The position numbers and the translations under genes are program-made. Below are positions 2,158 to 64,000 of a stretch of 64,000 nt of DNA, one piece after another (position 1 is the first letter of the stretch; the number at the start of each line of letters is the position of its first letter). The notes below the pieces were generated by a model. It was not told the origin of the DNA and did no database searches. It saw nothing but the letters and a program-made list of their open reading frames with translations. The DNA comes from Candidatus Altimarinota bacterium (lineage in GTDB: Bacteria; Patescibacteriota; Gracilibacteria; UBA4473): assembly GCA_020631075.1 (NCBI GenBank), contig JAHDHX010000005.1, positions 62,001-126,000 of the forward strand, written 5' to 3'.

Positions 2158-2169
2158 TATACTACCCCG
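2158..2169 (+). promoter_or_regulatory. extended -10 box giving a leaderless pilB transcript
   Basis: TGGTATACT (extended -10, hexamer 2158-2163) is followed by only six bases before the ATG at 2170. Transcription would start at or next to the A of the start codon. No good -35 is visible, as is common for extended -10 promoters. This site also decides the start codon, since the frame is open further upstream to a TTG. Confidence 0.65.
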
Positions 2170-3801
2170 ATGCCTCACCTTTCTGGCGCCACCGCGGGCA
2201 CCGCCGCCGACCTCGTCCAGCGCGAATTTGCCGAGCGCCACGCCCAGCAGCGCGCCCAGTCACTCGGGCTGCCCTACGTCTCGCTCCAGCGTCGCCCGCT
2301 GTCACCTGACCTGCTGCAGCTGGTGCCCTTGCCCTTGGCCCAGTCGGCGCAGGCACTCCCCACGGCGCAGTCAGGCGTGCAGGTGCAGCTCGCAGTGGTT
2401 GACCCGTCGCACCCCGCCGTGTCGGACGTGCAAGCGCACCTCACCGCCCAGCGCCTTTCGCCCATATTGGCCCTCTGTTCGCCCGAGTCCTTGCGTGAGG
2501 TTTGGCCCCAGATGGAAGCCGCCCACACGGGTAAAAAGCAGGTCATCACCCGCACCCACACCACCGAAGGCGACACACTGGAGGGCCAGCGCTCTGACTT
2601 TATCGCCCTCCAGCGGGAGCTCCCCACCCTGCACCCGCAGGCCGCCCTGGCAGAGGTCAAACTCGCCGCCCTGTCCGCCCAAGCCTCAGACATCCACCTG
2701 CAGCCTTCTGCGGCGGGGTCTACGCTGCGCTTCCGCATCGACGGCCTGCTCTACGACATCTTCACCCTCGACCACGACACCACCGCCAAGCTTCGCACTC
2801 AGATCAAGTACGAAAGCGGCCTCAGGACAAATGTTGCCAACGTACCGCAAGATGGTGCTTCCACCACTACTATAAACGGCCGATTGATTGATTTTCGCGT
2901 GGCGACTCTCCCTACCCCCCACGACGAATCCATCGTCATCCGCCTGCTCGACAGCCACAAAGCCATCAAGCCCTACACCAAGCTGGGCCTGCACCCACGC
3001 GCCTGCGCGGTGCTCGAGCAGGCCATCACCCAGCCCAACGGGCTCATCCTCGTCACGGGCCCCACGGGGTCAGGCAAGACCACCACCCTCTACTCGATCT
3101 TGTCCGAGCTCAACCAACCAGAGGTCAAACTCGTCACCCTCGAGGATCCGATCGAATACCACCTCGACGGCGTGTCACAGTCACAGATCGACGAAACGTG
3201 GGATTACAGCTTCAGCACTGGTCTGAAAGCCATCCTCCGTCATGACCCAGACGTCATCCTCGTGGGGGAGGTTCGCACCGCCGACACCGCTGCCATGGTG
3301 GTGGAGTCCGCCATGACAGGCCACCTTGTCCTCACCTCCCTTCATACCAATTCCGCGGCTGGGGCCATCACCCGCCTCCGTAATCTCGGCCTGCCTGACC
3401 ACGACATCGCCCCCACCCTGCGGGCGGTTTTTTCACAGCGACTTCTGCGGCAGGTCTGCCCTGACTGCGTCACCATGGTGCCCTACGCCCCCACGCCCGA
3501 GCAGCAAACCCTCTGGAATTCCCTCCAGTCGAAAGGTGTCCACGGAGAGGTGCCCGCCACCGTGCCCGCTGCGCAGGGGTGTGACGCTTGTTCGCACACG
3601 GGCTATCTGGGTCGGGCGGCCATCTGCGAAGCCTTCCTCGTCGACGCTGAGACAGAGCACGAACTGTTTCACGGTGCGTCAGAGGTGCAATTGCGCGAGT
3701 TTCTTTCCGCGCACAAACAATTCATTTCCCTGCGGGAGAGCGGCCTGCTGCAAGTCGCCGCGGGCCAAACCACCGTCGAAGAAGTGTGGAGAATCGCTTA
3801 A
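2170..3801 (+). CDS. pilB: type IV pilus extension ATPase PilB (GspE family)
   Basis: A hexameric secretion ATPase of 543 residues that powers pilus subunit assembly at the cytoplasmic face. A degenerate MshEN-like N-terminal domain is followed by the ATPase core: Walker A GPTGSGKTTT at about 297, an Asp box (VTLEDPIEY), Walker B (PDVILVGEVR, about 360), a His box (GHLVLTSLHT), and the four zinc cysteines typical of PilB (CPDC at about 430-433, CDAC at 471-474). The ATG at 2170 is preferred over an upstream TTG at 2092 because a TATACT box lies just before it. The gene lies close to the PilN/PilO genes but on the opposite strand and under its own promoter. Confidence 0.92.
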   Translation: MPHLSGATAGTAADLVQREFAERHAQQRAQSLGLPYVSLQRRPLSPDLLQLVPLPLAQSAQALPTAQSGVQVQLAVVDPSHPAVSDVQAHLTAQRLSPILALCSPESLREVWPQMEAAHTGKKQVITRTHTTEGDTLEGQRSDFIALQRELPTLHPQAALAEVKLAALSAQASDIHLQPSAAGSTLRFRIDGLLYDIFTLDHDTTAKLRTQIKYESGLRTNVANVPQDGASTTTINGRLIDFRVATLPTPHDESIVIRLLDSHKAIKPYTKLGLHPRACAVLEQAITQPNGLILVTGPTGSGKTTTLYSILSELNQPEVKLVTLEDPIEYHLDGVSQSQIDETWDYSFSTGLKAILRHDPDVILVGEVRTADTAAMVVESAMTGHLVLTSLHTNSAAGAITRLRNLGLPDHDIAPTLRAVFSQRLLRQVCPDCVTMVPYAPTPEQQTLWNSLQSKGVHGEVPATVPAAQGCDACSHTGYLGRAAICEAFLVDAETEHELFHGASEVQLREFLSAHKQFISLRESGLLQVAAGQTTVEEVWRIA

Positions 3802-3932
3802 TAGCGGTTTCAAGTCATTGAAATGCAATTACTATGCAAAAAATGTATTGGGGTTTTTGAGGATGGTTTTTCCCTTCTTGGGCACCACTCCGCTTGCCCG
3901 TCTGCACCCGCTGGCCCATACTCGCCCCCGAC

Positions 3933-4880
3933 ATGACCCAGCTCAAAGTTTTCTTGATCCAGATCTACATCGCTCTTGCGGGCTGGCTCGCGGGTGAGCA
4001 AGTCCTCGAAGCCCACCTCCAGACGCTTTCCCCCGCCCCCGCCGACACCCTGACCGCCCTGCAGGTCAGCCCCCCCCCTGCCCCTCCCCCCAAGGTCGAA
4101 AGCGGCCCCCCCGCCAACAACCCCCAGTTTCAGAACCATCAGGTGGCCTTCGACCACTCTGGCAAAAAACTCAACTTGATCTTTGCGCCGCACCCCGATG
4201 ACGAAACCCTCGGCTGCGCCCGCTTGATCCGCTCCGCGCTCGAGCGCGGTGAATACGTCAAAATCATCTACCTCACCAACGGCGACGCCTTTTCGAAAGA
4301 CAATCCAGACGTCTCAAAAAATTACGGCCAGACCAGAGTGCAAGAGGCCAAAACCGTCGCCCAGCGTTTAGGCCTTCAGCCTGACGACCTTGAGTTTCTC
4401 GGCTTCCCCGACGGCTACCTCACCCAGATGCTCACCGACCAGGGCACCATCACGTCGGACTTCACCCACGCCACCGCCACGCCCGAGGGGGCACGCTACG
4501 GCAACCTCCGTTACGACCTCCAGCTGTTCAAAAACACCATTAAGGTCGTCATGGGCCGCTACAAACCCGACCGCGTCTACTACACCTCGCGCTACGACCG
4601 CCACCCCGACCATCAGGCCATCGCCCAATTATTTGAGGACGACCTCCTCACCGACCCCAAAGCCTACCCCAAAACCGCCTTCTACTCCTACATCATCCAC
4701 CGCCATCGCCAACCAGGGTGGTACTCCGACACCGTCGACGAATGGAAACTCGACCTCATCCGTGAGTTCACTTCCCAGCGGCACGACCGCCAGCACGAAG
4801 TTTTCCTCGACACCTTCGCCAAGCAAAAAGAGCGCTTTACGCTGCGTCGCCCCGCTCTCTATAAGGTTCCTGAAATTTAG
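3933..4880 (+). CDS. PIG-L (LmbE-like) zinc deacetylase, membrane-anchored
   Basis: A 315-residue protein with a hydrophobic N-terminal anchor (about residues 5-25), a Pro-rich linker, and a PIG-L fold. The zinc motif is PHPDDE at about 87-92 and the second motif HPDH is near 224. Members remove acetyl groups from N-acetylglucosamine-type substrates in glycolipids, mycothiol, bacillithiol or antibiotics; the substrate here cannot be told. The predicted membrane anchor suggests a cell-envelope glycan role. The ATG at 3933 is chosen over an upstream TTG at 3894. Transcription ends at the hairpin at 4931. Confidence 0.82.
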   Translation: MTQLKVFLIQIYIALAGWLAGEQVLEAHLQTLSPAPADTLTALQVSPPPAPPPKVESGPPANNPQFQNHQVAFDHSGKKLNLIFAPHPDDETLGCARLIRSALERGEYVKIIYLTNGDAFSKDNPDVSKNYGQTRVQEAKTVAQRLGLQPDDLEFLGFPDGYLTQMLTDQGTITSDFTHATATPEGARYGNLRYDLQLFKNTIKVVMGRYKPDRVYYTSRYDRHPDHQAIAQLFEDDLLTDPKAYPKTAFYSYIIHRHRQPGWYSDTVDEWKLDLIREFTSQRHDRQHEVFLDTFAKQKERFTLRRPALYKVPEI

Positions 4881-4930
4881 GCCGAACAGTGGAATCACTC
4901 CAGCGGAACTGTACCAGTTTCGTATCATAA

Positions 4931-4959
4931 AAAACTCCTCATTTCTGAGGAGTTTTTTT
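4931..4959. terminator. bidirectional intrinsic terminator
   Basis: An 8-bp stem (ACTCCTCA / TGAGGAGT) with a 4-base loop, flanked by an A-run on the left and a T-run on the right. It sits between the convergent deacetylase and M16 peptidase genes and can serve both. Confidence 0.85.
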
Positions 4960-4980
4960 GGTTAAATGGTGAAAGTCATC

Positions 4981-6243
4981 CTACCCCAGCAACTTTTCCA
5001 GCGCCGCTTGGTCGATCGCTGGGCCTATCCCTGCCAGTCGGTAGTGCTCTGACCGAAAGATCTCCTGCGCCAGTGCCTGCACATCCGCCGTCGACACCGC
5101 TGCTATGGCTGCTTGTCGCTCGGCGTAGCTAATCGTTTTGCCGTGCAGCAGCGGGTTTTTCCCAAACCAATGCGCCACGTTTTCCGTGTCTTCCGTCCGC
5201 AGGTCTATTTTCCCGAGCAGGTAGTTTTTGGCTTTTTCCAGCTCCGCTTCCTCCACACCTTCGGCCGCCAAGTGGTCATATTCGTAGCGGATCGCCTCGA
5301 TCGCCCCCAGCACGTCGCTCAGCTTCACCCCCGCCCGTGTCACCAGCAGGCCCGTGTCGGTGTACTCATCCACCACCGTCCGAATGCTATAACACAGCCC
5401 CTTGTCTTCCCGCACATTCTGAAACATCCGCGAGCTCATATTCCCCCCCAAGATCACCCCCAGCACGATCGACGTCGCATACCGCGGGTCTTCTTCGCTG
5501 ACGGCCTGCACTCCGAGCGCTATGTGATATTGCTCAGTTTTTTTCTGGCGGATCTGTATCCGCTCCGTCGCCACACTCGGGTCATACGCACGATACGGCC
5601 GACTCTGCCTCGTCCCCCCCAGGGTGAAGTACGACTCCACCAGTTCGAGCGTGCTTTCGTCCACCGCGCCCGCCAGCGTGATCACCATGTTGTCTGGGGT
5701 GTACAGTTCTTTTTGATATGCCTGAAACTGCGCCTGCGTCACCCCTTTGATGAGCTCTTTCGTCCCGATCTGGTCCCACCCCAGGGGTTGATCACCGAAA
5801 ACCAACCGCTCAAAATCCCACGAGATCTGATACATCGGCGCATCCAGATACATCGCCATCTCTTCGAGGATTACCCCCCGCTCCTTATCGATTTCCACAG
5901 GGTCAAACCGTGAATGCAGCAACATATCTGACAGCACATCCAGCGCCTTTTCCGTATTTTTTTTGTTCGATTTCACGTAGTACCCCGCATACTCCTTGCC
6001 CGTGAAGGCATTAAATTCCCCGCCAAAACAGTCCACGGCTTCCGCCACAGCTTTGGGCGTGGTGTACTTCTTCGCCCCCTTAAAGAACATATGCTCCAAA
6101 AAGTGCGAAATCCCGCGGATTTCAGGCGTCTCATACCGCGACCCCGCCCCCACGAGGATCAGCGTCGTCACCACATTGGTGCCAGGCATTTCCACCGCCT
6201 GTATCCGTAAACCATTTTCGAGCGTTTTCGTGTGCAATTTCAT
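4981..6243 (-). CDS. M16-family zinc peptidase (processing peptidase-like)
   Basis: A 420-residue peptidase of the pitrilysin/M16B family. The inverted zinc motif is HFLEH at residues 47-51, with the third ligand in ERGVILEEM near residue 127. The rest follows the two-domain M16B pattern, including the arginine/tyrosine-containing region near YSIRTVVDEY. Length is normal for a single-chain M16B enzyme such as YmxG. It probably degrades or processes small peptides in the cytoplasm; no signal peptide is seen. A consensus TATAAT ends six bases before its ATG, so the mRNA is predicted to be leaderless. Confidence 0.88.
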   Translation of the reverse strand: MKLHTKTLENGLRIQAVEMPGTNVVTTLILVGAGSRYETPEIRGISHFLEHMFFKGAKKYTTPKAVAEAVDCFGGEFNAFTGKEYAGYYVKSNKKNTEKALDVLSDMLLHSRFDPVEIDKERGVILEEMAMYLDAPMYQISWDFERLVFGDQPLGWDQIGTKELIKGVTQAQFQAYQKELYTPDNMVITLAGAVDESTLELVESYFTLGGTRQSRPYRAYDPSVATERIQIRQKKTEQYHIALGVQAVSEEDPRYATSIVLGVILGGNMSSRMFQNVREDKGLCYSIRTVVDEYTDTGLLVTRAGVKLSDVLGAIEAIRYEYDHLAAEGVEEAELEKAKNYLLGKIDLRTEDTENVAHWFGKNPLLHGKTISYAERQAAIAAVSTADVQALAQEIFRSEHYRLAGIGPAIDQAALEKLLG

Positions 6244-6249
6244 GCCATC

Positions 6250-6255
6250 ATTATA
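6250..6255 (-). promoter_or_regulatory. -10 box (TATAAT) of the M16 peptidase, leaderless
   Basis: A perfect TATAAT on the minus strand is followed by GATGGC and then ATG. The -35 region is poor. Confidence 0.6.
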
Positions 6256-6301
6256 CGTTCACTTACAGACACTTCCTACTCTTTTTCCTTGCGAATGGCT
6301 A

Positions 6302-6329
6302 TTGACAAAATACTATAAATATATATAAA
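6302..6329 (+). promoter_or_regulatory. promoter of the PKD protein, leaderless
   Basis: A perfect TTGACA (6302-6307), a 16-base spacer and TATAAA (6324-6329), then six bases to the ATG at 6336. A second TATA-like box at 6322 overlaps. This is the clearest leaderless promoter in the window because both hexamers are good. Confidence 0.72.
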
Positions 6330-6335
6330 AAAAAT

Positions 6336-7859
6336 ATGAAAAAATTCCTCTGGCTCCTGCTGACCGTCATCCTGCTGGGCAGTGTGCTCTGGGTGGGGCG
6401 TTGGCTCTACCAGCGTTGGGGGGCTTCCACTCCTGACCCCGTGTCGACTATTTCTCTGTCTGACGACACCCAGTCCCTGTCTTTGGCGGACCGTCTCGCT
6501 GGCTGGTTCCCACAGACAGGTGCCCCCTACGGCCTGGCAGCCCGAACGGTAAGTGCCGAAGACTTTTTTGCCGACAGTATGCAAAACAGCGACTTAGGGC
6601 AATTACAGACTGAAAAAAATCAGAATACAGCCGCCACCAATTCTTCGGCCAATGACGCCACCTCCGAAAATCAACCACATTGCGATCAAGTAAGTTGTTC
6701 AGCTAATGGAGCAGATTCTACGAAAAACACCAACCCCAATATATCCGACCAGCTGCACGCCCGCTTCCCTTTTTTGCCACTCGATGGTTCACTTTTGTCG
6801 CCAGACGACATTCTTTCGGCTGACGCCCCTACCAGTCAAAACCAAACCACGCACAGTGACGCTTCCACAGGAAGCTCAGACGACAGTTCGGCCACCACTC
6901 CCCAGATCGGCGAGATTTCCCCCCCACTGTCACTGAGCGGCCAACCCTCTCCTACTCCCGACCCTAGTTCTGCCACTGACGCTCCCTCTGCAGACCAGAG
7001 TGCCACCACCTCCGCCCCATCCTCGACCGCATCTGGCAACAGCGCCACTGGCGAGCCCCCAGCCGAAGGCACGACCACCGCATCCGTGTCCGAGCTGCAG
7101 TCTCTCTTAGACCAGCGTGAGGCTGAAGCAGGTGGCAGCGGTGACACCCAACCCAGCACGGGGGAGGGGGCCAACGGCGCAGGCACCTTAGGTGACGCAC
7201 TCTCTTCACTAGGGGTTTCCCCAGCTTGGGCCACCGCGAATGGCATCAGTCCCGCTACCCCCGCCAGCCTTTCCTTGGCGGACTGGCTCTCTCGGGTCAA
7301 CCCTGGCCCGCAGTCACTCCCCATCCCAGAAGGCACCGACACGTCGCTCTCCTTGGCCGACTTCCTCTCTCGCCTAAGCCCAGGCCCCCAGTTCCAACTC
7401 CCAAACTTCTCTCCCCCCTCCAGCACGCTTACGTCCACGGCACAGGGTAGTGGAGTTTTTCAGACCGCCACCCTGCAGGAAATCTTCTTGAGTGATTCCG
7501 CCAACACCTTGCAGTTTGACGACATAGCCAATGTATCACTGGCTTCCAATGCTTCCGCTGCCCCGCAGCCAGGGGTCGGTATGCCCGTTGAGCCCATTGC
7601 CCGCGTTTTTGTCTCCCAGGCAGAGGCCGACACCCGCACCCAATTTTTCTTCGACGGCAGCCAGTCCGCTGGTTCGGGCCTGCGCTATCGGTGGCAGATC
7701 GCCGCGTGCAATTCCGCCAAATCGCGCTGGGCCACTCCCACAGTTAAGCACACCTATGCCGAATGCCCAGGCCTCAAAGCCATCTCGCTCCAGATCACCG
7801 ATCGTTACGGGCGCACCGACCAGGTCGAGTTCACCGTCAACGTGACGGATCCCGCCTAA
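6336..7859 (+). CDS. exported Ser/Thr/Pro-rich protein with SLSLAD repeats and a C-terminal PKD domain
   Basis: A 507-residue protein with an N-terminal signal anchor (about 3-22) and then a long low-complexity region rich in Ser, Thr, Pro, Asp and Gln. A short motif, SLSLAD(R/W/F)L, occurs three times: at about 48, 312 and 338. The last two copies are followed by the similar segments VNPGPQ and LSPGPQ. The C-terminal 90 residues form a PKD-like beta-sandwich (FFFDGSQSAG, YRWQIAAC, LQITDRYGRTDQVEF). PKD domains act in surface adhesion and protein-protein contacts. The protein is probably anchored in the membrane with its PKD domain outside. Its exact function is unknown. Confidence 0.72.
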   Translation: MKKFLWLLLTVILLGSVLWVGRWLYQRWGASTPDPVSTISLSDDTQSLSLADRLAGWFPQTGAPYGLAARTVSAEDFFADSMQNSDLGQLQTEKNQNTAATNSSANDATSENQPHCDQVSCSANGADSTKNTNPNISDQLHARFPFLPLDGSLLSPDDILSADAPTSQNQTTHSDASTGSSDDSSATTPQIGEISPPLSLSGQPSPTPDPSSATDAPSADQSATTSAPSSTASGNSATGEPPAEGTTTASVSELQSLLDQREAEAGGSGDTQPSTGEGANGAGTLGDALSSLGVSPAWATANGISPATPASLSLADWLSRVNPGPQSLPIPEGTDTSLSLADFLSRLSPGPQFQLPNFSPPSSTLTSTAQGSGVFQTATLQEIFLSDSANTLQFDDIANVSLASNASAAPQPGVGMPVEPIARVFVSQAEADTRTQFFFDGSQSAGSGLRYRWQIAACNSAKSRWATPTVKHTYAECPGLKAISLQITDRYGRTDQVEFTVNVTDPA

Positions 7860-7990
7860 GTTTTATTTCATGAGCGTGTGTCGCGTTTGGAGGTGTGTGC
7901 TGCCTTGATGAAAAGCCTTCTTTTTCTTCATTTGCTTTTTTAAGAAAATTATCGAGACTCAGGACTGACGCCACTACATTTGGAAACACC

Positions 7991-8362
7991 ATGGACCAAG
8001 AATTTTTCGACCACCTCATCAGCCTCATCGGCCTTCGCCGTCATTGTCCGCGCTGCAGCTGCACTGACCCAGCGGTCGTCTCTATCGACGGCTTCGTGGC
8101 CAACTCCGCTGGCGTGCTTGTCTTGGGGCATTGTCAGCAGTGCGACACCGAGATCGTCTGCGCCGGTATGCCCGTGCCCGAGTCCGCCCAGCAGCCCAAG
8201 TCCAAAAAATCCCTCTCACCCACCCCCGCCCAAGCCGCCCCGCAGCAGCGCGTCGCCAGCCTCACGGGGCAAGACGTCAGCCGCATCGCGCAGGCCGTCA
8301 CTCAGTTTCGCGGTTCAGACATCCGCACGCTGCTCGCCGACGACTCCCCTGACCACAGATGA
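7991..8362 (+). CDS. small zinc-ribbon protein, unknown function
   Basis: A 123-residue protein with two CxxC pairs (CPRC near residue 19, CQQC near 48) that likely form a zinc ribbon. A Lys/Ser/Pro/Gln-rich linker and a conserved-looking C-terminal helix (TGQDVSRIAQAVTQFRGSD) follow. The frame extends upstream to 7895, but the ATG at 7991 is the first ATG that leaves the zinc ribbon intact. Its TGA overlaps the ATG of the next gene. I do not recognise the family; the C-terminal motif could be a protein-binding helix. Confidence 0.6.
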   Translation: MDQEFFDHLISLIGLRRHCPRCSCTDPAVVSIDGFVANSAGVLVLGHCQQCDTEIVCAGMPVPESAQQPKSKKSLSPTPAQAAPQQRVASLTGQDVSRIAQAVTQFRGSDIRTLLADDSPDHR

Positions 8363-8751
8363 AACCCCTCCTCACAGGCATAATTGTTCTCATTGGCTTG
8401 GGGGTTTTCTGGCTCCACTCCCAGCCCTCAGACGGTCAGTCCACTCTCTCCGCGGTCGAAGCGTCCCCAAAAACTTCAGACAACATCACTCCACCTGAGA
8501 GCGACAGCCAAACTTCACCACTGGCGGATTACTTGCCTGATGACGTTTTTTCTGAAGCCATGGAAATAAAAACAAAAATAGAATCCCTTCAATCTGATTT
8601 GCAAGGAAAAGTGGAGATTGGCACAGAAAAATACACCGAAACCAAGGCTGAAATCGAAGCCCTCCAATCGCAACTGCAAAAACTGCAAGAAACCGCTCAG
8701 TCACTACAGCAAACCGTAATCGATGTGACCAGTTTTTTCCAGTCCCCTTGA
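8359..8751 (+). CDS. small membrane-anchored coiled-coil protein
   Basis: A 130-residue protein with an N-terminal hydrophobic segment (about 4-20), a Ser/Thr-rich spacer and a heptad-like helical region from about 70 to 120 rich in Glu, Lys, Leu and Gln. It begins with an ATGA overlap on the zinc-ribbon gene, so the two are probably made together. Function unknown. Confidence 0.6.
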   Translation: MKPLLTGIIVLIGLGVFWLHSQPSDGQSTLSAVEASPKTSDNITPPESDSQTSPLADYLPDDVFSEAMEIKTKIESLQSDLQGKVEIGTEKYTETKAEIEALQSQLQKLQETAQSLQQTVIDVTSFFQSP

Positions 8752-9137
8752 GCACACATTCGGCAATTACCTGTAACACTTTCGCTTGAATGGCGTTTTT
8801 TGTCATGTCAAAGCACCAGAGTGCCCCTTGCCCCCACGGCAAATCTCTCTACCGTTTTGGCAGACTCGTTGACTTGGGACTAGGAATCCTCTCAACGCGC
8901 CTTTATTGCTCACATCGTTGGGCATTTGGTGGAAAGAAGTCCCCCCAGATCTTTCACGCGCACCGGCCGGGAGGCGTCACGCAATGCCATTAAAGGTATT
9001 TGCCACTCTTATACTGACGCCACGCCTAGAAATATTTTTCAACTCTTATGAACGTAACTAACCCTCCTTGGAGAGCCCTGCTTTTTGTAGCCGCGCCTTC
9101 GTGAGGGATTTGCTGTTTTTTCTCACATCTTTTCAAT
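8752..9137 (+). other. 386-base gap: promoter and long leader of the S-layer gene
   Basis: No convincing gene is present. A TATACT box at 9010-9015 would give the S-layer mRNA a leader of about 115 bases. The upstream 250 bases show no gene and no strong hairpin with a T-run. Confidence 0.45.
9010..9015 (+). promoter_or_regulatory. -10 box of the S-layer gene
   Basis: TATACT. The best -35 candidates (CATTAA or TTAAAG) are weak. The resulting leader of about 115 bases is among the longest in the window. Confidence 0.4.
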
Positions 9138-22845: not shown

Positions 22846-22865
22846 CCCCACCTCACTGCTACCCT
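22837..22865 (+). promoter_or_regulatory. promoter of the deacetylase lipoprotein, near-leaderless
   Basis: TTGGCT, 17 bases, TACCCT, then eight bases to the ATG at 22874. It overlaps the thrS promoter on the other strand. Confidence 0.4.
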
Positions 22866-24850: not shown

Positions 24851-24856
24851 TACACT
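24851..24856 (+). promoter_or_regulatory. -10 box, leaderless start of the membrane protein gene
   Basis: TACACT followed by seven bases (CCACCTG) and the ATG at 24864. The -35 region is poor. Confidence 0.45.
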
Positions 24857-24863: not shown

Positions 24864-25424
24864 ATGGAACTCCAACTCACGTGGAATCTCGCCCTCATCT
24901 CGGCCTTCGTGGTGCTGTTTACCTACCACTTTTTGCTGGGGCAAAACGCCACCATTAAGCTCATCCTCTCGATCTACATCGCCATCCTCACGGCGGACGG
25001 CGTCGCCCGCATTTTGAAGGAATTCGTCTTCGACATTTCCCCAGGCGTGCAGCAGCTTGTCGGCCGCTACGACGACGAGATCTTCACCACCATCCGCCTC
25101 ATCTTGTTCCTCCTCGGCATCATCTTCTTCGTGGTCAAAGGCGCCTTTCACATCGCAGTCGATCGGCACGACCACTGGCTCGCCCGCCTCACTATCCAGA
25201 TGCTCTTTTCCACCTTCTCTGCCCTCTTGTTTTTGTCCACGGTGCTCATCTACCTCTCGGGCAACAGTTTCGTCGAGGGCATGGTCTTCGCGTCTGACAT
25301 CACCATCTACAGCGAGTCCATCGTCGCCCGCATTTTGATCGACTACTACCAGTTCTGGTTCAGCCTCCCCGCCATCCTCTTTCTCGTCACCAGCTTCTTG
25401 TTTGACGAAGAGTACGTTGTCTAA
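24864..25424 (+). CDS. four-helix membrane protein, unknown function
   Basis: A 186-residue integral membrane protein with about five hydrophobic stretches (near 8-24, 32-48, 78-95, 110-130 and 163-180) and short loops. The first long loop contains acidic residues (GRYDDEIF). I do not recognise the family. A TACACT box seven bases before the ATG supports this start. Confidence 0.65.
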   Translation: MELQLTWNLALISAFVVLFTYHFLLGQNATIKLILSIYIAILTADGVARILKEFVFDISPGVQQLVGRYDDEIFTTIRLILFLLGIIFFVVKGAFHIAVDRHDHWLARLTIQMLFSTFSALLFLSTVLIYLSGNSFVEGMVFASDITIYSESIVARILIDYYQFWFSLPAILFLVTSFLFDEEYVV

Positions 25425-30232: not shown

Positions 30233-30261
30233 TTTACGCCCCCGCCCCCAGATTTTACAAT
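30233..30261 (+). promoter_or_regulatory. promoter of recG, near-leaderless
   Basis: TTTACG, 17 bases, TACAAT, then eleven bases to the ATG at 30273, leaving a leader of only about four bases. Confidence 0.6.
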
Positions 30262-32978: not shown

Positions 32979-33086
32979 ATGTCTAAAAAGCCGTCCAACC
33001 TCCTCATGAAAATCTTCGTCATCATCGTCGCCCTCTCGATGGTCGGCGTGGCGATCTTACCCTTCTTACCATTCGCCCACTCCTAG
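32979..33086 (+). CDS. 35-residue single-helix membrane protein
   Basis: A very short frame: a Lys/Ser/Pro-containing N-terminus, then one hydrophobic segment (about residues 11-32) ending before HS. It lies between grpE and mnmA with gaps of only 33 and 10 bases on the same strand, which supports a real operon member. Function unknown. Confidence 0.5.
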   Translation: MSKKPSNLLMKIFVIIVALSMVGVAILPFLPFAHS

Positions 33087-33096
33087 GCTTTCCTCT

Positions 33097-44590: not shown

Positions 44591-44619
44591 TTCGATTATT
44601 TCTGGCAAAAATTTACTAT
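44591..44619 (+). promoter_or_regulatory. promoter of the MGMT-like gene, near-leaderless
   Basis: TTCGAT, 17 bases, TACTAT, then nine bases to the ATG at 44629. An overlapping TATAAC ends six bases before the ATG. Confidence 0.5.
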
Positions 44620-51984: not shown

Positions 51985-52033
51985 TCACCACGAGCGTCTT
52001 CCCCCTCTTTGTACTTTCTGCCCCGCCCCATTT

Positions 52034-53320: not shown

Positions 53321-53338
53321 AGCTGAGTAGAAAATGAG

Positions 53339-53378: not shown

Positions 53379-53408
53379 ATTAGAATTTGTGTGATAAAAT
53401 AATAATAA

Positions 53409-53435
53409 TTGAAAATTCTTGAATTTTATTTTCAA
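53409..53435 (+). repeat. 8-bp inverted repeat before an AT-rich gene pair
   Basis: TTGAAAAT and ATTTTCAA are perfect arms separated by 11 bases, ending five bases before the ATG at 53441. It could be an operator or a leader hairpin. Confidence 0.4.
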
Positions 53436-53440
53436 ACTGT

Positions 53441-53767: not shown

Positions 53768-53776
53768 TTCTTAATA

Positions 53777-55858: not shown

Positions 55859-55884
55859 AGTTTCAGAGTGTGTGTTTCAGCTCT

Positions 55885-55913
55885 ATTTTACGCTAGAAAA
55901 GCGCCCCCTGCAA
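55885..55913 (-). promoter_or_regulatory. promoter of the CorA-like gene
   Basis: TTGCAG, 17 bases, TAAAAT. The -35 lies inside the 3' end of the DUF2797 gene. The leader of about 20 bases is GAAACACACACTC-like. Confidence 0.6.
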
Positions 55914-56792
55914 CGCCGCCCCCAGCACCGTGCCCGCGGGCAAGGGCGAGAAGTCTAGCATATACCCCCGCAGATCTTTCGCGTTGAGCGCAATGATCTC
56001 CGTGTCTGTCTCGAGGAAAACAAACTGCCCCCGCAACGCCAGCACCCGCCCACTGACCGACTCATCCACCGCCAGTTTCAGCGCGTGATACGCCTTCGGG
56101 CTGCCCGCCACCCGCCCCAGTCCATAGTGCTCCCCCCACCACACATACGCACCGTCTGTCAGCTGTTCCCGCAAATGCTCAAACCCCGCCCCCAGCACAG
56201 CGGGGATGCCCTCCTGCAGGGCTTGGAGTCGCGCCTCTGCCTGCGCAGGGGTAATATCAGGCACGAGGAAAGCCCGCTTCTGCGACGCCGATATTTTATC
56301 CGCCAACCCACTCTGGCGGGCTAGCGTTTCTATCTGGCGGGCGTGCACACCGTTTTTACACTCTGCAATGTACTTCGTCGCCAGCGACCCCTGCTCTATC
56401 TGCCGCAGGCGGCTCCGTTCGGCTTTCGACACCCCTATTTTCATCATCTCATCCGTGAAGTAGGCCAAATACACCACATGGGGCACATCGAGCTTTTCCA
56501 GGTCCACCGCCGACACATGGCTGGTGTCAAACCCATCAAACACCGTGTAGATAAAACTCCCCTCCAGGCTCCGACACAGCTGGCACTTGGCGCGGGGCTC
56601 ATGGGTCACACTCTGGCACGCGCCCCAGCCACGGTCCGTCAGGTGCCCCGCACAGTGCCGCTCACCGACCACCTGCACCGACAGGTCTTGCCCCACGGCA
56701 ATGTTTTTCCGCCCAAACCGCCCCTGCGCAGTGGCTTGCCACTGGGTGGTGTGTTCATCGACCCAACGATAATCATAGAGGTGGACGTGCAT
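55893..56792 (-). CDS. DUF2797-family protein
   Basis: A 299-residue protein of the DUF2797 type. It has a cysteine cluster (CAGHL, CQSVTHEPRAKCQLC, about 47-75) likely binding zinc, then a GIY-YIG-like segment (VVYLAYFTDEMMKIGVSKAER) whose endonuclease residues are only partly kept. Biochemical function is unknown. The ATG at 56792 follows a GTG that also opens the frame. It is divergent from recJ, and the two promoters overlap. Confidence 0.75.
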   Translation of the reverse strand: MHVHLYDYRWVDEHTTQWQATAQGRFGRKNIAVGQDLSVQVVGERHCAGHLTDRGWGACQSVTHEPRAKCQLCRSLEGSFIYTVFDGFDTSHVSAVDLEKLDVPHVVYLAYFTDEMMKIGVSKAERSRLRQIEQGSLATKYIAECKNGVHARQIETLARQSGLADKISASQKRAFLVPDITPAQAEARLQALQEGIPAVLGAGFEHLREQLTDGAYVWWGEHYGLGRVAGSPKAYHALKLAVDESVSGRVLALRGQFVFLETDTEIIALNAKDLRGYMLDFSPLPAGTVLGAALQGALF

Positions 56793-56810
56793 CACCCTCG
56801 GTTGTAGCCT
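56782..56810 (+). promoter_or_regulatory. promoter of recJ, leaderless
   Basis: TGGACG, 17 bases, TAGCCT, then seven bases to the ATG at 56818. It overlaps the opposite promoter. Confidence 0.45.
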
Positions 56811-56829
56811 ATTGCCGATGACCGATCAA
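56801..56829 (-). promoter_or_regulatory. promoter of the DUF2797 gene, leaderless
   Basis: TTGATC, 17 bases, TACAAC, then eight bases to the ATG at 56792. Confidence 0.55.
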
Positions 56830-58518
56830 GCCCCTTGGCACCACTATCACTGGGCCCCCACTGACACCTACGCCACCGTGGCGCAGGCCCAGCAGGGCTT
56901 TTTGCGGCAGCGCAGCCTGGCCGCGCCCGACGCCCTCCACTCGTGGCTCCACGGCAGCCTGGCGGACCTCCCCACTCCTGCCCAGATGCACGGCCTCGTC
57001 CCCGCCGCCCAGCGCCTTTCTGACGCGATCGACGCTGGTCAGCGCATCATGGTCTACGGCGATTTCGACACCGACGGCATCACCTCCACGGCCACCTTGG
57101 TGTGGGGGCTACGGCAGCTCGGGGCCGAGGTCTCGTACCGCATCCCCGACCGCGTGCGTGACAGCCACGGCCTCCGCCACCATTTAATAGACGAGATCGC
57201 CGCCTCAGGCGCCACCGTCCTGCTCACCTGCGACTGCGGCATTAATGACCACCACGAAGTCACCTACGCCACCCAGCTCGGCCTCACCGTCATCATCACC
57301 GACCACCATCAGTCAGACCCCGCCCGCTTCCCCCACGCGGCCCACGCCGTGGTCAACCCCCACCAAGCCGCCTGCACCTACCCCGAGCAGGTTTTGGCAG
57401 GGGTGGGCGTCGCGTGGAAGCTCATCTGCGGCCTCACCCAGGTCCGCCAGCTGTCGGCCAGCCGCACCCTGCAGATCATCGAGCCCCTGCTGGAGTTCGT
57501 CGCCATCGGGCTCGTGGCCGACTGCGTGCCCCTCATCGGCGAGAACCGCATCCTCGTCAAGGCTGGCCTCGCCCAGCTCCAGCACTCTCGCTGGCCGGGC
57601 CTGCGCCAGCTCCTGCGGGAGGTTGGTGACAGCGGCCAACCCATCACCGAGGAAACCATCGGCTTCACCATCGCCCCTCGGCTCAACGCCGCCTCTCGCC
57701 TCGGCGAGGTCCAATACGCCGTCGGCCTCCTCATCGGCGACGAGTCCCGCCATCCACAGCGCGTGGCCTACCTCCAGCGGCTCAATTCCGACCGCCGCGC
57801 CCTCACGCACGAGTGCGTTACCGAAGCCCTGCTCCAGGTCGAGGATCTTAGCCACTCCGCAGGCTGCTACCTCGTCGGGGCCCCGCATTGGCCCGAGGGC
57901 ATCTTGGGGCTGGTGGCTTCCCGCCTGGTCGAGCAACTCGGGCGGCCAGTCGTGGCCCTCCGCTACGGCGAGCAAACACTCAAAGCCTCCTGCCGCGCCC
58001 CCGCTGGGTTTGACATGCACGCGGGCCTCGCGTCGGTCAGCCCGTGGCTCACCCGCTGGGGGGGGCACGCAGGGGCCGCAGGGTTCAGCGCCCCCGCCGA
58101 GCACTTCACCGACATCCGCGCTGGGCTGGCCACCCATTGGCCCGCCGACACCACCCAGACCGTCCCCGTCCAGCTCGACGCCTTCCTTACCCCCCAGTGC
58201 GACGAATCCACCCTCCTCGACTGGTTCGATCCCTTCCGCCCGTGGGGCGTGGGCAACCCCCAGCCCGTCTACGCCCACCGTCGCGTCACCCTCACCAAGG
58301 TAAAATTCATGGGCCAGCACCACAACCACCTGCGACTCGAGTGCGTCACCGACACGGGCCATCCCTTCGCCTATGTAGCGTTTTTCGCTGACCATCTCAC
58401 TCCACACTTGGTGATCGGCCACCGCTACGACGTCGCCTTCACGCTCAGCTGGAACCACTGGAACGGCACCCAATCCATCCAGCGACTCGTGCAACACATA
58501 CGTCAGGTGGGCGAATAA
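56818..58518 (+). CDS. recJ: single-stranded-DNA exonuclease RecJ
   Basis: A 566-residue DHH-family exonuclease for recombination and repair. Metal motifs are GDFDTDGITS near 81-90, DHH at 162-164, RLNAASRLGE, and the DHHA1 motif GGHAGAAG near 415; the OB domain follows. The usual DxDxDG order is kept (DFDTDG). The ATG at 56818 is chosen over a TTG two codons upstream because of the TAGCCT box seven bases before it. Confidence 0.94.
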   Translation: MTDQAPWHHYHWAPTDTYATVAQAQQGFLRQRSLAAPDALHSWLHGSLADLPTPAQMHGLVPAAQRLSDAIDAGQRIMVYGDFDTDGITSTATLVWGLRQLGAEVSYRIPDRVRDSHGLRHHLIDEIAASGATVLLTCDCGINDHHEVTYATQLGLTVIITDHHQSDPARFPHAAHAVVNPHQAACTYPEQVLAGVGVAWKLICGLTQVRQLSASRTLQIIEPLLEFVAIGLVADCVPLIGENRILVKAGLAQLQHSRWPGLRQLLREVGDSGQPITEETIGFTIAPRLNAASRLGEVQYAVGLLIGDESRHPQRVAYLQRLNSDRRALTHECVTEALLQVEDLSHSAGCYLVGAPHWPEGILGLVASRLVEQLGRPVVALRYGEQTLKASCRAPAGFDMHAGLASVSPWLTRWGGHAGAAGFSAPAEHFTDIRAGLATHWPADTTQTVPVQLDAFLTPQCDESTLLDWFDPFRPWGVGNPQPVYAHRRVTLTKVKFMGQHHNHLRLECVTDTGHPFAYVAFFADHLTPHLVIGHRYDVAFTLSWNHWNGTQSIQRLVQHIRQVGE

Positions 58519-58550
58519 AAAAATCCTAGAGCGTTTTTCAGCTCTAGGAT
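58516..58550 (-). terminator. terminator of the AT-rich gene pair
   Basis: A perfect 10-bp stem ATCCTAGAGC / GCTCTAGGAT with an 8-base loop. On the minus strand it is followed by T7; on the plus strand no tight T-run follows. It also lies just after recJ. Confidence 0.75.
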
Positions 58551-58575
58551 GTACGATATTTTTGATAATTCGGGG

Positions 58576-59784
58576 TTACATATACATATTCAAGGCTTCA
58601 AATCGTTCATTACTTAGGAATGTGATTTGCTGATAAATTTGATTCATCAGTTCATCAATTGTTTCAATACTATAATCAATTTTATAAAATATAGAATCGA
58701 GTAATGTATTAGAAAATCTGCTATTTCTATTTAGGGGATAACCCATAGTGTCAAATTTGCCAAAGCTACATAAGAAGATGCTGGTGGGATATTCTGCCAA
58801 TTTAACTATGTGACACTCTAAATCATACGTCAGGTCTCCATCATTTCTTTTCAATGCTAGTAGAGCTCCAGAAAGTCTGTATTTATGAACAAACTGTTCT
58901 TCAAACGCTACATATTGAAAGTTAAGTACTCTACTTGCTCGTTTTTCTGGCTTAATCTTTTCATGATAAAGATTTAGAGATTTGAAGTTAAATAACTCAA
59001 TTCCTTTTGAAAGCACTGTTGGGTACTCTTTGAGTACTACTTCTTCCTCTTCATTTTCATCTTTTTCTTCAACCAGTTGAATTACATTTTTGGGTTTTTC
59101 GACCATGAATGGAGTGAAACGAAGGTCATAAATTCTGCGGTTATACCCCTCGCACGATACTACTTGTACGGATTGTTCATCGGTTCCTCTTACCTTTTCG
59201 ATTTTTACATGAGAGGGGTCAATCAATTTCCCATGGTTAAATGAAAACCATTTATTTTTTTCTATCTCTAAATAAAGCTTATTTAGCTCTATTGAAATAT
59301 AATTAAGTATAAACTGCGTAAATTCATTGCAGGACACAGAACTAAGTACCTCGTTATTTGTAATTTTAACCTGTATATTACTTTTTTTCTCTTTAAACTT
59401 TAAGAAAGAGCTTGGGCAGTGTGTAGTACTGTCCCATTCATTCTTATAGTGCAAAGAGATTTCATATTCTTCACATTCAATCTCAATGGCTTTACCAGTC
59501 TTATACGCTAAATAGTGACCGCGAAGATTCCATTTTGAGAATTTTTGACCTTTAAAGACATCGTACTTTAGGCTAGATAAATTTCTAGCAAGCACGTAAA
59601 ATCCGTCTTCTAATCTGTGAATAAAGTCAAACGTATTCCTAGATTTGTATTTACGAAAGGCATGTAATTTTTTAATATCAATTTGAGGTTTTTCTGAAAA
59701 AATATCTAATGATATATTTTTCTTTTTAGCGTAATTAAATCTCTCTTTGAGATTCATGTCTTTAATTTGTTTTTGATTAGTCAT
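58576..59784 (-). CDS. AT-rich gene for a protein of unknown function
   Basis: A 402-residue protein rich in Lys, Glu, Ile, Asn and Phe, with no membrane segment and no known motif. A highly acidic stretch (DENEEEE) occurs near the middle. Composition and codon use differ strongly from the GC-rich neighbours, which suggests recent acquisition. It overlaps the upstream gene by 8 bases and ends at a terminator. Confidence 0.6.
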   Translation of the reverse strand: MTNQKQIKDMNLKERFNYAKKKNISLDIFSEKPQIDIKKLHAFRKYKSRNTFDFIHRLEDGFYVLARNLSSLKYDVFKGQKFSKWNLRGHYLAYKTGKAIEIECEEYEISLHYKNEWDSTTHCPSSFLKFKEKKSNIQVKITNNEVLSSVSCNEFTQFILNYISIELNKLYLEIEKNKWFSFNHGKLIDPSHVKIEKVRGTDEQSVQVVSCEGYNRRIYDLRFTPFMVEKPKNVIQLVEEKDENEEEEVVLKEYPTVLSKGIELFNFKSLNLYHEKIKPEKRASRVLNFQYVAFEEQFVHKYRLSGALLALKRNDGDLTYDLECHIVKLAEYPTSIFLCSFGKFDTMGYPLNRNSRFSNTLLDSIFYKIDYSIETIDELMNQIYQQITFLSNERFEALNMYM

Positions 59785-60313
59785 TTTTTTGGTTTTTTTC
59801 CAAGTAATTTAAATAAGATTTAAGAATTATATTCGTTGATATATTAATAAGTTTAAGCATATCAACGACTTTTGAATGATTAATAAATACGTCACTGATC
59901 TTGCCTGAGTCAGTACCGCCGATTTGATTGGGGGCGTCTTCGAGGTAGCACTCATCTGGCGCAAAGTTACAAAGTTCTTTTGCCAAGGCACGGTAAGTGC
60001 CGTCTGATTCTCTGGTGATAGTGAGCTCCTTCATGCCATGTATGGCAAGGGAGACACCAGTGATACTCATTGTTTGCATGCACAGTTGGTCTGCATTCTG
60101 AGTGAATGTGACCGTGTAATCCAAACTATAAGCGTGCTTATCAGGTTGCCAGAGAAACCAAACATTCTTGGTCATCTGCTTACCATCAACCGCTGAAATC
60201 TTGAGTTTGTTTCTGTCGATTTCATCCAGATTAATGAGTTTCCAAAATTCGTCTGGGAATTCATGTTCGAGCCAGCCCTTTTTGGTATAACTTTTAATTT
60301 TAATTTTTTTCAT
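59777..60313 (-). CDS. AT-rich gene for a small protein of unknown function
   Basis: A 178-residue protein with mixed alpha/beta character and a Lys-rich basic N-terminus; no family recognised. It is the first gene of the pair and its stop overlaps the next start by 8 bases. No clear promoter is seen in the strongly AT-rich upstream stretch. Confidence 0.6.
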   Translation of the reverse strand: MKKIKIKSYTKKGWLEHEFPDEFWKLINLDEIDRNKLKISAVDGKQMTKNVWFLWQPDKHAYSLDYTVTFTQNADQLCMQTMSITGVSLAIHGMKELTITRESDGTYRALAKELCNFAPDECYLEDAPNQIGGTDSGKISDVFINHSKVVDMLKLINISTNIILKSYLNYLEKNQKND

Positions 60314-60346
60314 AAAATAATTAATTTTGTTTTTAATTGAATAATA

Positions 60347-60402
60347 ATTTCTGAAATGCTCACTAAGCTCCGTAATTCAAGCACAGGGAGCATTCCAGAA
60401 AT
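60347..60402. repeat. 15-bp inverted repeat at the edge of the AT-rich segment
   Basis: ATTTCTGAAATGCTC (60347-60361) and GAGCATTCCAGAAAT (60388-60402) pair with one mismatch around a 26-base loop. There is no T-run, so it does not look like a simple terminator. It marks the border between AT-rich and GC-rich DNA. Confidence 0.6.
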
Positions 60403-60473
60403 CTATCCCCGAATCTGTCAAAGAACATCTGCTCAGTGACCAAGGATTGAGAGCCAGAATCTGGCCGTCAGAC

Positions 60474-60503
60474 TTGTCAGCTAAGACATTCTCGTTTTAC
60501 AAT
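60474..60503 (+). promoter_or_regulatory. promoter of the TrmB-type regulator
   Basis: TTGTCA, 18 bases, TACAAT. The leader of about 45 bases holds the palindrome at 60536. Confidence 0.6.
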
Positions 60504-60535
60504 GTATTTGCGAGTGGCAAACGTCACCACGTGGT

Positions 60536-60545
60536 AACACTTAGC
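60536..60545 (+). promoter_or_regulatory. palindromic operator candidate
   Basis: ACCACGTGGT is a perfect 10-bp palindrome in the leader of the regulator gene, about 20 bases before its ATG. It could be an autoregulatory binding site of the TrmB protein. Confidence 0.4.
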
Positions 60546-60554
60546 ACCATATTA

Positions 60555-61346
60555 ATGTTTGAGCCTTTACTGCAGCAGCTTGGCCTGTCCAAAAACGAAG
60601 CCATTATCTACGAAGCCCTCCTGCAGCAGGGGCAGTCTAGCGTGGCCCAGATCTGCCGCGTCACCCAGATCCATCGCCGCAACGCTTACGACTCCCTAAA
60701 ACGTTTAAGCGAACGAGGAGTCGTGTTTGAAGTCTTAGCAGGACGAGAACATCATTATCAGGCCGTTCATCCGCAGAAATTCCAAGAATTTCTGCAAGAG
60801 AAGCAAACTCGTCTGCAGCGAGCCCTCCCACATATGATTTCCCTGTACGACACCACGCCTCACCCCAACGAAGTCTACATCTACAAAGGCACAGAAGGCT
60901 GGAAAAACTATCTCAGCGACATCCTGCGAGTAGGACAGCCTTTTTATTCGCTCGGCGCCAAGGGCTGCTGGCTTGACCAGCGTGTCTCACATTTTTATCC
61001 CCATTTTCAATCAGAGTTTCAGCGTCTCGCTCTTCCCGCCTATCACCTCTTTGACACCGAAGTCAGCACCAAGTGCCCAGAAATTCTAACCCAGGTCGGG
61101 CCCAATTTTCGCCTTTTGCCACCACACGCCAGCACCAGTTGCTGCGTTGACGTCTTTGGTGACCACGTGGTGCTGCTGTCTTCGGCTGTCCCAGGCGGGT
61201 TTGAGCATGACTTTTCTTTCAGCGTCGTCATCAACCCACAGATCGCCACGGCCATGCGCACATGGTTTCATTTGCTCTATGACTCACTCCCCCCTCACAG
61301 CTCCAACGGCAACGCCGTCGGCACGATCACCCCTTCTCCCAGCTGA
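60555..61346 (+). CDS. TrmB-type transcriptional regulator
   Basis: A 263-residue regulator. The N-terminal winged helix (LGLSKNEAIIYEALLQQG, VAQICRVTQIHRRNAYDSLKRL) is typical of TrmB; the C-terminal part is a PLD-like sensor region (EVYIYKGTEGWKNYLSDILR), where the ligand is unknown. The ATG at 60555 is the normal start. Its last 17 codons are antisense to the end of aroB (52-base convergent overlap). Confidence 0.82.
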   Translation: MFEPLLQQLGLSKNEAIIYEALLQQGQSSVAQICRVTQIHRRNAYDSLKRLSERGVVFEVLAGREHHYQAVHPQKFQEFLQEKQTRLQRALPHMISLYDTTPHPNEVYIYKGTEGWKNYLSDILRVGQPFYSLGAKGCWLDQRVSHFYPHFQSEFQRLALPAYHLFDTEVSTKCPEILTQVGPNFRLLPPHASTSCCVDVFGDHVVLLSSAVPGGFEHDFSFSVVINPQIATAMRTWFHLLYDSLPPHSSNGNAVGTITPSPS

Positions 61347-62329
61347 CGGTAAAGCACGAGGTTCAGATGATCCCCATCCTTTTTCTTGTCGCGCATCATG
61401 GTTTCGGCCAGCTCCGCTGGGGCATAGGGGCAGACAGTCGGCAGCCCAAACCGCTCTAGCAGCTCCGTCAACCACTCGGCCGACGCCGCCGTGCACATCC
61501 CCGTCCGCACCCCATACTGCGCCGCCATCACCATCCCCATGGCGACGGCCTGCCCGTGCGGCACGGCAAATTCACTCAGCCACTCCACCGCGTGCCCAAA
61601 GGTATGCCCAAAGTTCAGCAGCATCCGCTGGTTTGACTCACGCGTGTCCACCTCCACGATTGCTTTTTTAATGTGAATAGACTCTCCCAGCAACCCCGCC
61701 AACGCCCGCAAGTCAGGCGTCGGGCTGGCTATCTCCGCTAAACGTTCCAGGTGCCCCCGCGACGCCACCACCCCGTGCTTGACCATCTCCGCAATCCCGT
61801 TTTGCACCTCGGTCACGGGCAACGACTGCAGAAATTCCGCACACGTCAGCACCACCTCAGGCTGGTGAAACGTCCCCACGAGGTTTTTCCCTTGGAAATC
61901 AATCCCCGTTTTCCCCCCCACAGACGCATCCACCATCGACAGCACCGTGGTCGGCACCTGCACAAACCCCACCCCACGGAGGAAGATCGACGCCGCAAAC
62001 CCCGTCATATCCCCGATCACCCCGCCCCCCACCGCGACAAACACACTCCGACGGTCGAGCCCGTCGTCCATCGCCCGCAGGATGATCCGCTGCACCGAGT
62101 CAAAATTCTTATATTGCTCCCCAGGCGGCATCACCAGCACAGACTCAGGCGCGATCCCCGCAAAAAACCCCGAAGACTGATACACATTTTCGTCCGTCAC
62201 TATCAGGTGCCGTCGGTCAGCGATCTGCGTCAGCAGCTGGGCTTTGACAGCCGCAAAGTCAGGCAAGAGGTGAATGTTATACGAAACCGTTTTTTCCGCG
62301 AGTGACACATTGATCGAAGAGCCAGACAT
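61295..62329 (-). CDS. aroB: 3-dehydroquinate synthase
   Basis: A 344-residue enzyme, the second step of the shikimate pathway. NAD and zinc motifs are GEQYKNFDSV, AVGGGVIGDMTGFAAS, PTTVLSMVDASVGGKTG and NFGHTFGHAVE. No other aro gene is in the window. Such a gene can also belong to aminocyclitol synthesis, but the motifs fit AroB. The leader shows no clear promoter. Confidence 0.93.
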   Translation of the reverse strand: MSGSSINVSLAEKTVSYNIHLLPDFAAVKAQLLTQIADRRHLIVTDENVYQSSGFFAGIAPESVLVMPPGEQYKNFDSVQRIILRAMDDGLDRRSVFVAVGGGVIGDMTGFAASIFLRGVGFVQVPTTVLSMVDASVGGKTGIDFQGKNLVGTFHQPEVVLTCAEFLQSLPVTEVQNGIAEMVKHGVVASRGHLERLAEIASPTPDLRALAGLLGESIHIKKAIVEVDTRESNQRMLLNFGHTFGHAVEWLSEFAVPHGQAVAMGMVMAAQYGVRTGMCTAASAEWLTELLERFGLPTVCPYAPAELAETMMRDKKKDGDHLNLVLYRQLGEGVIVPTALPLEL

Positions 62330-62451
62330 GGGCAGGAAAAGGCAAAAAGGTAGGCAGAATCTATAATTACTTTGCGTTACCTTAGGGCTCTGCCCGTGAG
62401 AATGCTACCCCAGTTTCACCGTTCTGACTCGCCCTGCGACGACCCACCCGC

Positions 62452-62457
62452 TACTAT
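62452..62457 (+). promoter_or_regulatory. -10 box of the DnaQ-like gene, leaderless
   Basis: TACTAT followed by seven bases and the ATG at 62465. The -35 is poor. Confidence 0.4.
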
Positions 62458-62464
62458 CAGCCCA

Positions 62465-64000
62465 ATGAAACTCTGCTTCCTCGACCTCGAAACCACTGGC
62501 TTTGACCCACACAAAGACTCCATTATCGAGATTTCTTTCATCATCCGCGAGGGTGAGGCCGTCACCACCACCTTCGATCGGGTCGTTACCCCTGACAAAT
62601 CCCTCCTCAGCCCAGAAGTCACCAGCATCACAGGCATCACCCAGTCGGAGCTCGACACCCACGGCGTGCCGTTCACTCAGCTGCAGGCCGAGGTCAACAC
62701 CCTCCTGACAGACTGCGTCATCGTCGGGCATAATATCAACTTCGACCTGCAGTTCCTCCGCGCCAACGGCGTCCCCCTCACAGACGCTCATTACCTAGAC
62801 ACCCACCAGCTCGCCCGCATCCTCTTGCTGGAGGAACCCAGCTACTCACTCGAGGCGCTCAGCCAGCGGTACGGCTTCACCCACACCGCCGCCCACCGTG
62901 CTTTGAGCGACGTCCACGCCTCCGCCCAGCTCTATGACCATTTGCTGGCCATTTTGCCGACCCTCCCAGCCGAGTTTTTCCGCCAGCTGCAGCAGCTCAG
63001 CACCCCGCATCACTGGTTCGCGTGGTCATTGTTTGTCGGGCAGAGCGGCCAGTCCGACATCCCGCCCTACCAGTCGCCCACGCTCTCCCTCCCGACAGAC
63101 CTCCCCCCCGCCCCACCCGCTCTTTTGCGCGCCCTCACCACGACAGCAGGCACCCCCGCCCCCGCTATTCTTACCCCCCAGACGCAGCAGGCCGTCACCG
63201 TGCCCCAGTGGCTCGCCCTCGCCCAAGCCCTCGCCGCTCAGGGGCAACCAGTGGCTATTGTCTCCCCCCACCTTGACTTCTGGGCAGGGGTGCCCCTCAT
63301 CCCCACCCCGGAGGTCCTCCTCGACCCCCAGCGACTCTTGGCCTGGCCCGCCCAGCACACCAGCTTGTCTGACGACCAGCTCTGCTTCTACCTCCAGTGC
63401 CTGCACCGTCACCTGCGGGGCTACCGCGGCCAGCACTACTTTGGGCTCTATATGCACCAGCGACAGTGGTGGAGCGAGATTTGCCAAACCGACATCGACA
63501 CCCCCGAGTTTCAGGCTTTGCTCACCACCAAAGCCTCCCTTGACATCGTCGCCCTCAGTTCGCGGGCTTTCTGGCGGCTGCGGGGCACCAGCGTGCTGGC
63601 GGGGCGCACATTGCTCATCGACGAAGGCGAACTCTTCGCCCAGCACCTCCTCCACCAGCCCGAGCATCGGTTTGACCTCAGTCCCCTCATGGACGACCCC
63701 ACCACCAGCACCGCCGCCCAGTTTTGGGTGTCAGGCTTCGTGCGTGACGTCATCGAAACGCAGCTCGGCCACGCGGTCGGGCATTTCCCCGCCAAAGTCG
63801 CCCTACCCGCTGGGCGGGCCTACACCGCTGAAGCCAAAGCCCTCAAAGCAATCGACCCCACGGCGGTCGTCTGGGCCAGGCAACTGGCAGAACCCGACCC
63901 AGGCACGCACCGCTGGGCGGAGTTCCACCCACGTTTCGGCCGCTTGACCCTCCACCGCTGGGCCCAGTCTGACTGGCTCGCCCTCCAGCATGAGCTCACC
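62465..64000 (+). CDS. DnaQ-like exonuclease fused to a degenerate DinG-like region (3' end outside window)
   Basis: The frame runs 512 codons to the window edge without a stop. The first 170 residues are a DEDDh exonuclease: D7 and E9 in FLDLETTG, H89 to D94 in GHNINFDLQFL, and H144 to D149 in HRALSDVH. The rest follows a DinG-type layout but lacks its hallmarks: where Walker A is expected there is TPQTQQAVTVPQ, and the DEAH box reads DEGE (386-389, in LLIDEGELFA). No Fe-S cysteine cluster is seen. It resembles DnaQ-DinG fusions in Gram-positive bacteria, but the helicase part is probably inactive or very divergent. Confidence 0.75.
   Translation, partial: MKLCFLDLETTGFDPHKDSIIEISFIIREGEAVTTTFDRVVTPDKSLLSPEVTSITGITQSELDTHGVPFTQLQAEVNTLLTDCVIVGHNINFDLQFLRANGVPLTDAHYLDTHQLARILLLEEPSYSLEALSQRYGFTHTAAHRALSDVHASAQLYDHLLAILPTLPAEFFRQLQQLSTPHHWFAWSLFVGQSGQSDIPPYQSPTLSLPTDLPPAPPALLRALTTTAGTPAPAILTPQTQQAVTVPQWLALAQALAAQGQPVAIVSPHLDFWAGVPLIPTPEVLLDPQRLLAWPAQHTSLSDDQLCFYLQCLHRHLRGYRGQHYFGLYMHQRQWWSEICQTDIDTPEFQALLTTKASLDIVALSSRAFWRLRGTSVLAGRTLLIDEGELFAQHLLHQPEHRFDLSPLMDDPTTSTAAQFWVSGFVRDVIETQLGHAVGHFPAKVALPAGRAYTAEAKALKAIDPTAVVWARQLAEPDPGTHRWAEFHPRFGRLTLHRWAQSDWLALQHELT

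Follow-up and report, generated by a model that had tools for sequence, protein, structure and literature searches.

Putative leaderless promoters at start codons and loss of Shine-Dalgarno signals in a family of Patescibacteria

Genes and putative promoter boxes of the window

The window analysed here is a stretch of 64,000 nucleotides (G000:C22:62001-126000) from an assembly of 1.46 Mb in 50 contigs that is 96% complete. Many of its genes have a -10-like hexamer that ends just a few bases ahead of their start codon. An initial annotation had listed nine such boxes with their spacings, and all nine were present when re-read from the sequence; the gene names that it gave to pilB, M16, recG, recJ, DUF2797 and MGMT are backed by Pfam. 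On the forward strand, pilB (2170..3801; T2SSE ATPase, Pfam T2SSE E=1.8e-104) has an open reading frame from 2170 and is preceded by a putative extended -10 element, TGG-TATACT (2155..2163), that ends 6 nt before its ATG. Box and spacing had been described correctly; position 2158, with which the listed range opens, marks where the hexamer begins, the ATG lying at 2170. The M16 peptidase gene (4981-6243, reverse strand) has TATAAT (6250..6255) 6 nt before its ATG, and the same spacing occurs on the forward strand at a PKD-type protein with ATG 6336, which is preceded by TTGACA-16-TATAAA (6302..6329) and for which a Pfam search gave no match. A spacing of 7 nt is found at three further forward-strand genes, encoding a membrane protein (TACACT, 24851..24856; ATG 24864), recJ (TAGCCT, 56805..56810; ATG 56818) and a DnaQ-like protein (TACTAT, 62452..62457; ATG 62465).

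The spacings are wider at recG (TACAAT, 30256..30261, forward; 11 nt before ATG 30273) and at the MGMT-like gene (TACTAT, 44614..44619, forward; 9 nt before ATG 44629). Here the proposal of the initial annotation that the mRNA begins at or near the start codon predicts a leader only a few bases long, short at recG and near-leaderless at the MGMT-like gene. The weak box of DUF2797 (TACAAC, 56801..56806, reverse) had been assigned a spacing of 8, which is true to the ATG (56792) and becomes 5 if counted to the GTG (56795). Two forward-strand candidates lie outside the original list: TACCCT (22860..22865), 8 nt before ATG 22874, and TAGGCT (33084..33089), 7 nt before ATG 33097. GC skew is negative across the whole window (1-64000), ranging from -0.16 to -0.27 in 4-kb steps, which is a strong strand bias.

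TANNNT spacing, promoter elements and conservation

The recurrence of these boxes across unrelated genes had been taken to make chance unlikely. Within the window alone that argument fails: of 59 called genes, 7 have TANNNT at a spacing of 6-8 nt and 10 have it at 6-11 nt, with 4-8 genes in the other six-base bins, and the counts do not reach significance. It holds at genome scale, where a sharp TANNNT peak at 6-8 bases, the check proposed at the outset, was found in 627 kb of sampled stretches that include the window and cover ~43% of the genome. All in-frame ATGs close to where called genes begin were counted there, the starts not being picked by motif, and TANNNT ended 6, 7 and 8 nt before them 20, 28 and 24 times vs ~9.3 expected per position, for a total of 72 vs 27.8 (Poisson p=2e-12). 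Among 64 xyNNNz patterns TANNNT ranked first for enrichment at 6-8 nt. Before out-of-frame ATGs in the same 627 kb its profile is nearly flat, and the difference between in-frame and out-of-frame ATGs has p=6e-6 in this genome and 1e-15 in the family.

The same signal extends beyond this genome. In relatives from the window's family, TANNNT at 6-8 nt occurs 93 times vs 35 expected (p=3e-16) and is again top among the 64 patterns; it also holds first place at 6-8 nt in the class's other families (p=1e-5) and in the phylum's other classes (67 vs 33.7, p=3e-7; L173-L191), and leaderless genes may be phylum-wide. In those other classes the enrichment coexists with a clear Shine-Dalgarno (SD) signal. 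The same 64-pattern test in E. coli gave no peak at 6-8 nt and placed TANNNT at rank 38, and a D. deserti plasmid, used as a positive control, showed a TANNNT peak at 5-7 nt. The estimated excess of strictly matching genes is 9% in this genome, 20% in family relatives and none in E. coli, and these leaderless fractions are lower bounds, exact TANNNT alone having been counted. The boxes are thus widespread, as had been claimed, without being universal, and visible TANNNT at 6-8 nt leaves most genes of this genome unexplained.

De novo motif searches recovered TAaaaT at 6-9 nt in the family relatives; in this genome a C-rich motif came first under a Markov background, and with a position-specific background the -10 signal was absorbed, leaving composition motifs that were uninformative. 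The pattern test likewise shows a second enrichment at 6-8 nt in this genome, of the C-rich ACNNNC (67 vs 31.7), which lies outside the top five patterns in relatives. At genes starting ≤20 nt behind another gene, boxes at 6-8 nt number 8 vs 2.5 expected in this genome and 13 vs 5.5 in the family, an excess inside apparent operons that could mean internal leaderless promoters.

Further promoter elements accompany the boxes: a TTGACA-like -35 element at 16-18 bp is found with 40% of the boxes at 6-8 nt vs 21% of other TANNNT (p=6e-4). The boxes next to ATG codons are very probably promoters, and the strongest support for this is comparative and comes from the sequence upstream of pilB. There, a box lies 6-7 nt before the ATG in 15/16 family genes, exactly 6 in 14 of them; all 15 boxed genes carry the extended -10 TGN, and 14 of the 15 have TTGN at exactly 17 bp in the -35 position, an element absent from the copy in this genome. 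A search for named relatives with chosen pilB peptides gave no match, and a 16S-tail pattern typical of the family, used in its place, did match other MAGs. Upstream of three pilB genes (L223, L224, L229) the 6-nt gap between box and ATG reads AAGGAG, abutting the ATG, which is too close for normal SD action.

Orthologs of the other genes keep their boxes to differing degrees. The recG gene has TANNNT at 6-12 nt in 16/16 family genes, and recJ has it at 3-13 nt in 17/18, mostly at 7-8 and exactly at 7 in 11; the weak-looking TAGCCT of recJ in the window is rescued because most family copies keep TANNNT at 7-8 nt. At the DnaQ-like gene TANNNT lies at 6-9 nt in 12/16 family loci, the window's own included, and M16 keeps its box in part (3-13 nt in 11/17 orthologs, mostly 7-9). 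The gene at 24864 has three orthologs in which TATACT lies at exactly 7 nt, although their upstream DNA is otherwise only 33-40% identical. Across ortholog pairs the presence of a box at 5-9 nt is correlated, with an odds ratio of 3.1 and a p value of 9e-5 that is optimistic, since pairs within one gene family are not independent; at a control spacing the odds ratio was 1.35 and not significant.

Shine-Dalgarno motifs and the 16S rRNA tail

SD motifs are depleted in this genome: at -17..-4 they precede 2.1% of ATG genes in general vs 7.9% of control stretches farther from the start, and the G content of the last 20 nt before starts is 7-16%. In relatives of the class the SD share is 3.6-3.8%, not above control stretches, and the same pipeline gave 57% in E. 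coli, 50% in the D. deserti sample and 24% in other classes of the phylum. The possibility that the SD had shifted to match the altered anti-SD was considered and rejected, as GGCG/GCGA/AGGC occurs at 5.2% vs 11.4% in controls and GGCGA/AGGCG at 0 vs 1%. A search for S21 as a correlate gave weak matches, mostly below the curated cut-off, and almost every genome of the class has a shorter S1-like protein, whose presence does not discriminate between them.

The 16S rRNA tail of this genome has lost the anti-SD core, reading GGATTATCGCC in place of the canonical GGATCACCTCC; the 16S 3' end at the start of the window's contig reads GGATTATCGCCTTTTACAGAGGC and is the one such end found in this genome, a second copy of which may be missing from the assembly. 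CCUCC is absent in 10/12 family genomes with a readable tail, this one included, which carry CCGCC, TCGCC or CTGCC instead, and is retained in one genus of the family (G010, G016). Elsewhere in the class CCUCC is mostly intact, apart from scattered changes. Divergent tails found beyond the family or at its margin, in L207 (DOLZORAL124_38_8), L140 (G020), L141 (G022) and L132 (G032), read GGAAACTCCTTTG, GGACCACCCCTT, GGAATACCTCTT and GGACTATCTCC, pointing to repeated anti-SD decay within the class. That SD is absent class-wide while most families still carry CCUCC suggests that SD use was dropped first and that the anti-SD decays afterwards.

The tail can also pair, as judged by eye, with bases just downstream of it: GCCT/AGGC in this genome, CTCC/GGAG in the canonical form and GCCA/TGGC in G001. 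The stem is seemingly kept via compensating changes (GCCT/AGGC, GCCA/TGGC, TCCT/AGGA) at G000:C22:1-60, which is L192 and lies outside the window, and at the family 16S loci L122-L131, L142 and L193-L211. This by-eye stem suggests that selection at the 16S tail may keep precursor pairing and not SD pairing.

Probable leaderless initiation and its relation to known systems

The leaderless or near-leaderless reading of the initial annotation gains support from the motif and its spacing peak, the -35 and extended -10 elements, conservation in orthologs, SD depletion and the altered 16S anti-SD, all of which are read from the sequence, and from them we infer the transcription start and the route of translation. 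We consider it very probable that these genes have ordinary sigma70-type promoters whose -10 box lies 6-8 nt before the start codon and gives a leaderless mRNA. At the usual distance between the -10 hexamer and +1, a spacing of 6 nt puts +1 on the A of the ATG and spacings of 7-8 put it within 1-2 bases. RNA polymerase would then start at the A of the ATG or 1-2 bases off it, yielding a leaderless mRNA, and spacings of 9-12 nt would yield leaders of a few bases. Leaderless mRNAs in other bacteria are initiated through the 5'-terminal AUG together with initiator tRNA, and leave no room for an SD. By analogy with that work, the ribosome with initiator tRNA would recognise the 5'-terminal AUG directly. 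Such initiation would belong to a wider abandonment of SD initiation: nowhere in the class are SD motifs enriched before genes, and in the family CCUCC has mostly given way to CGCC or a similar sequence. For genes outside the peak, some other SD-independent route must serve.

Other accounts of the boxes fare poorly. They might instead act in leadered mRNAs as an A/T-rich, SD-independent ribosome-binding element of the kind proposed for Flavobacteria or for S1 binding, and this lineage does lack SD motifs and has an S1-like protein, and A/T-rich elements have been described from other bacteria poor in SD (PMC3522020, PMC5397173); such an element would have no reason to keep the 17-bp -35 and the TGN that nearly all family members show at the pilB box, and we regard this account as quite improbable. 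A still slimmer likelihood attaches to misassigned start codons, with the true starts elsewhere and mRNAs that have normal leaders or other extents. The start calls are computational, and in several orthologs the nearest ATG is a few codons off the position predicted by alignment, but the peak is restricted to in-frame ATGs, the same ATG and spacing recur in orthologs whose proteins are ~36-69% identical, and no SD motif is present for such leaders to use. That chance or the composition of AT-rich upstream DNA produces the pattern is scarcely credible and already largely refuted: this account agrees with the counts in the window, which are compatible with chance, but not with the difference between in-frame and out-of-frame ATGs, with the first rank of TANNNT among 64 patterns or with boxes conserved in orthologs despite little upstream identity.

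Earlier work established leaderless genes with TANNNT promoters for Actinobacteria and Deinococcus-Thermus (Zheng et al. 2011, PMC3160421; Zhong et al. 2025, PMC12340547). The putative promoters described here resemble the TA-led genes of those groups, having TANNNT a few bases before the start, an optional -35 and no room for an SD, but Deinococcus-Thermus and Actinobacteria keep SD for many other genes, as the D. deserti sample illustrates, whereas here SD is depleted and the anti-SD altered. Flavobacteria, insect symbionts and hemotropic Mycoplasma are in turn established cases of the loss of both anti-SD and SD (Lim et al. 2012, PMC3522020), and CPR bacteria listed as SD-scarce and lacking the anti-SD comprise Ca. 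Peribacter, SR1 and two other CPR lineages (PMC10783764). The family shares with these bacteria a 16S rRNA without CCUCC and a scarcity of SD motifs; in most of them, however, the replacement signal is not known or consists of A-rich leaders, whereas here a conserved ATG-adjacent putative promoter is available for part of the genes. Archaea such as Nanoarchaeia also combine leaderless transcription with a lost anti-SD core (PMC10783764), a pairing that the family would share if its transcripts are leaderless as predicted, although archaeal promoters have a TATA box about 25-30 bp upstream and those proposed here a sigma70-type -10 at 6-8 nt.

The new element is the combination, in one bacterial family, of putative leaderless TANNNT promoters at the ATG with SD and anti-SD loss; a limited literature search, not proof of absence, found no report of leaderless genes in Patescibacteria, the one gracilibacterium paper with both topics naming them only in the titles that it cites. 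In a broader reading, which we offer tentatively as plausible though not quite probable, SD/anti-SD pairing would be extinct in the family, leaderless or near-leaderless initiation would, as in some archaea, provide the principal defined signal for starts, and the 16S tail would persist only as one strand of a precursor-processing stem, the lost anti-SD bases being balanced by compensating downstream changes. The family offers an uncultivated bacterial lineage in which to study the ribosome without the SD interaction. Gene finders that rely on SD may misplace starts in these genomes, and TGA is read through in some relatives of the same class.
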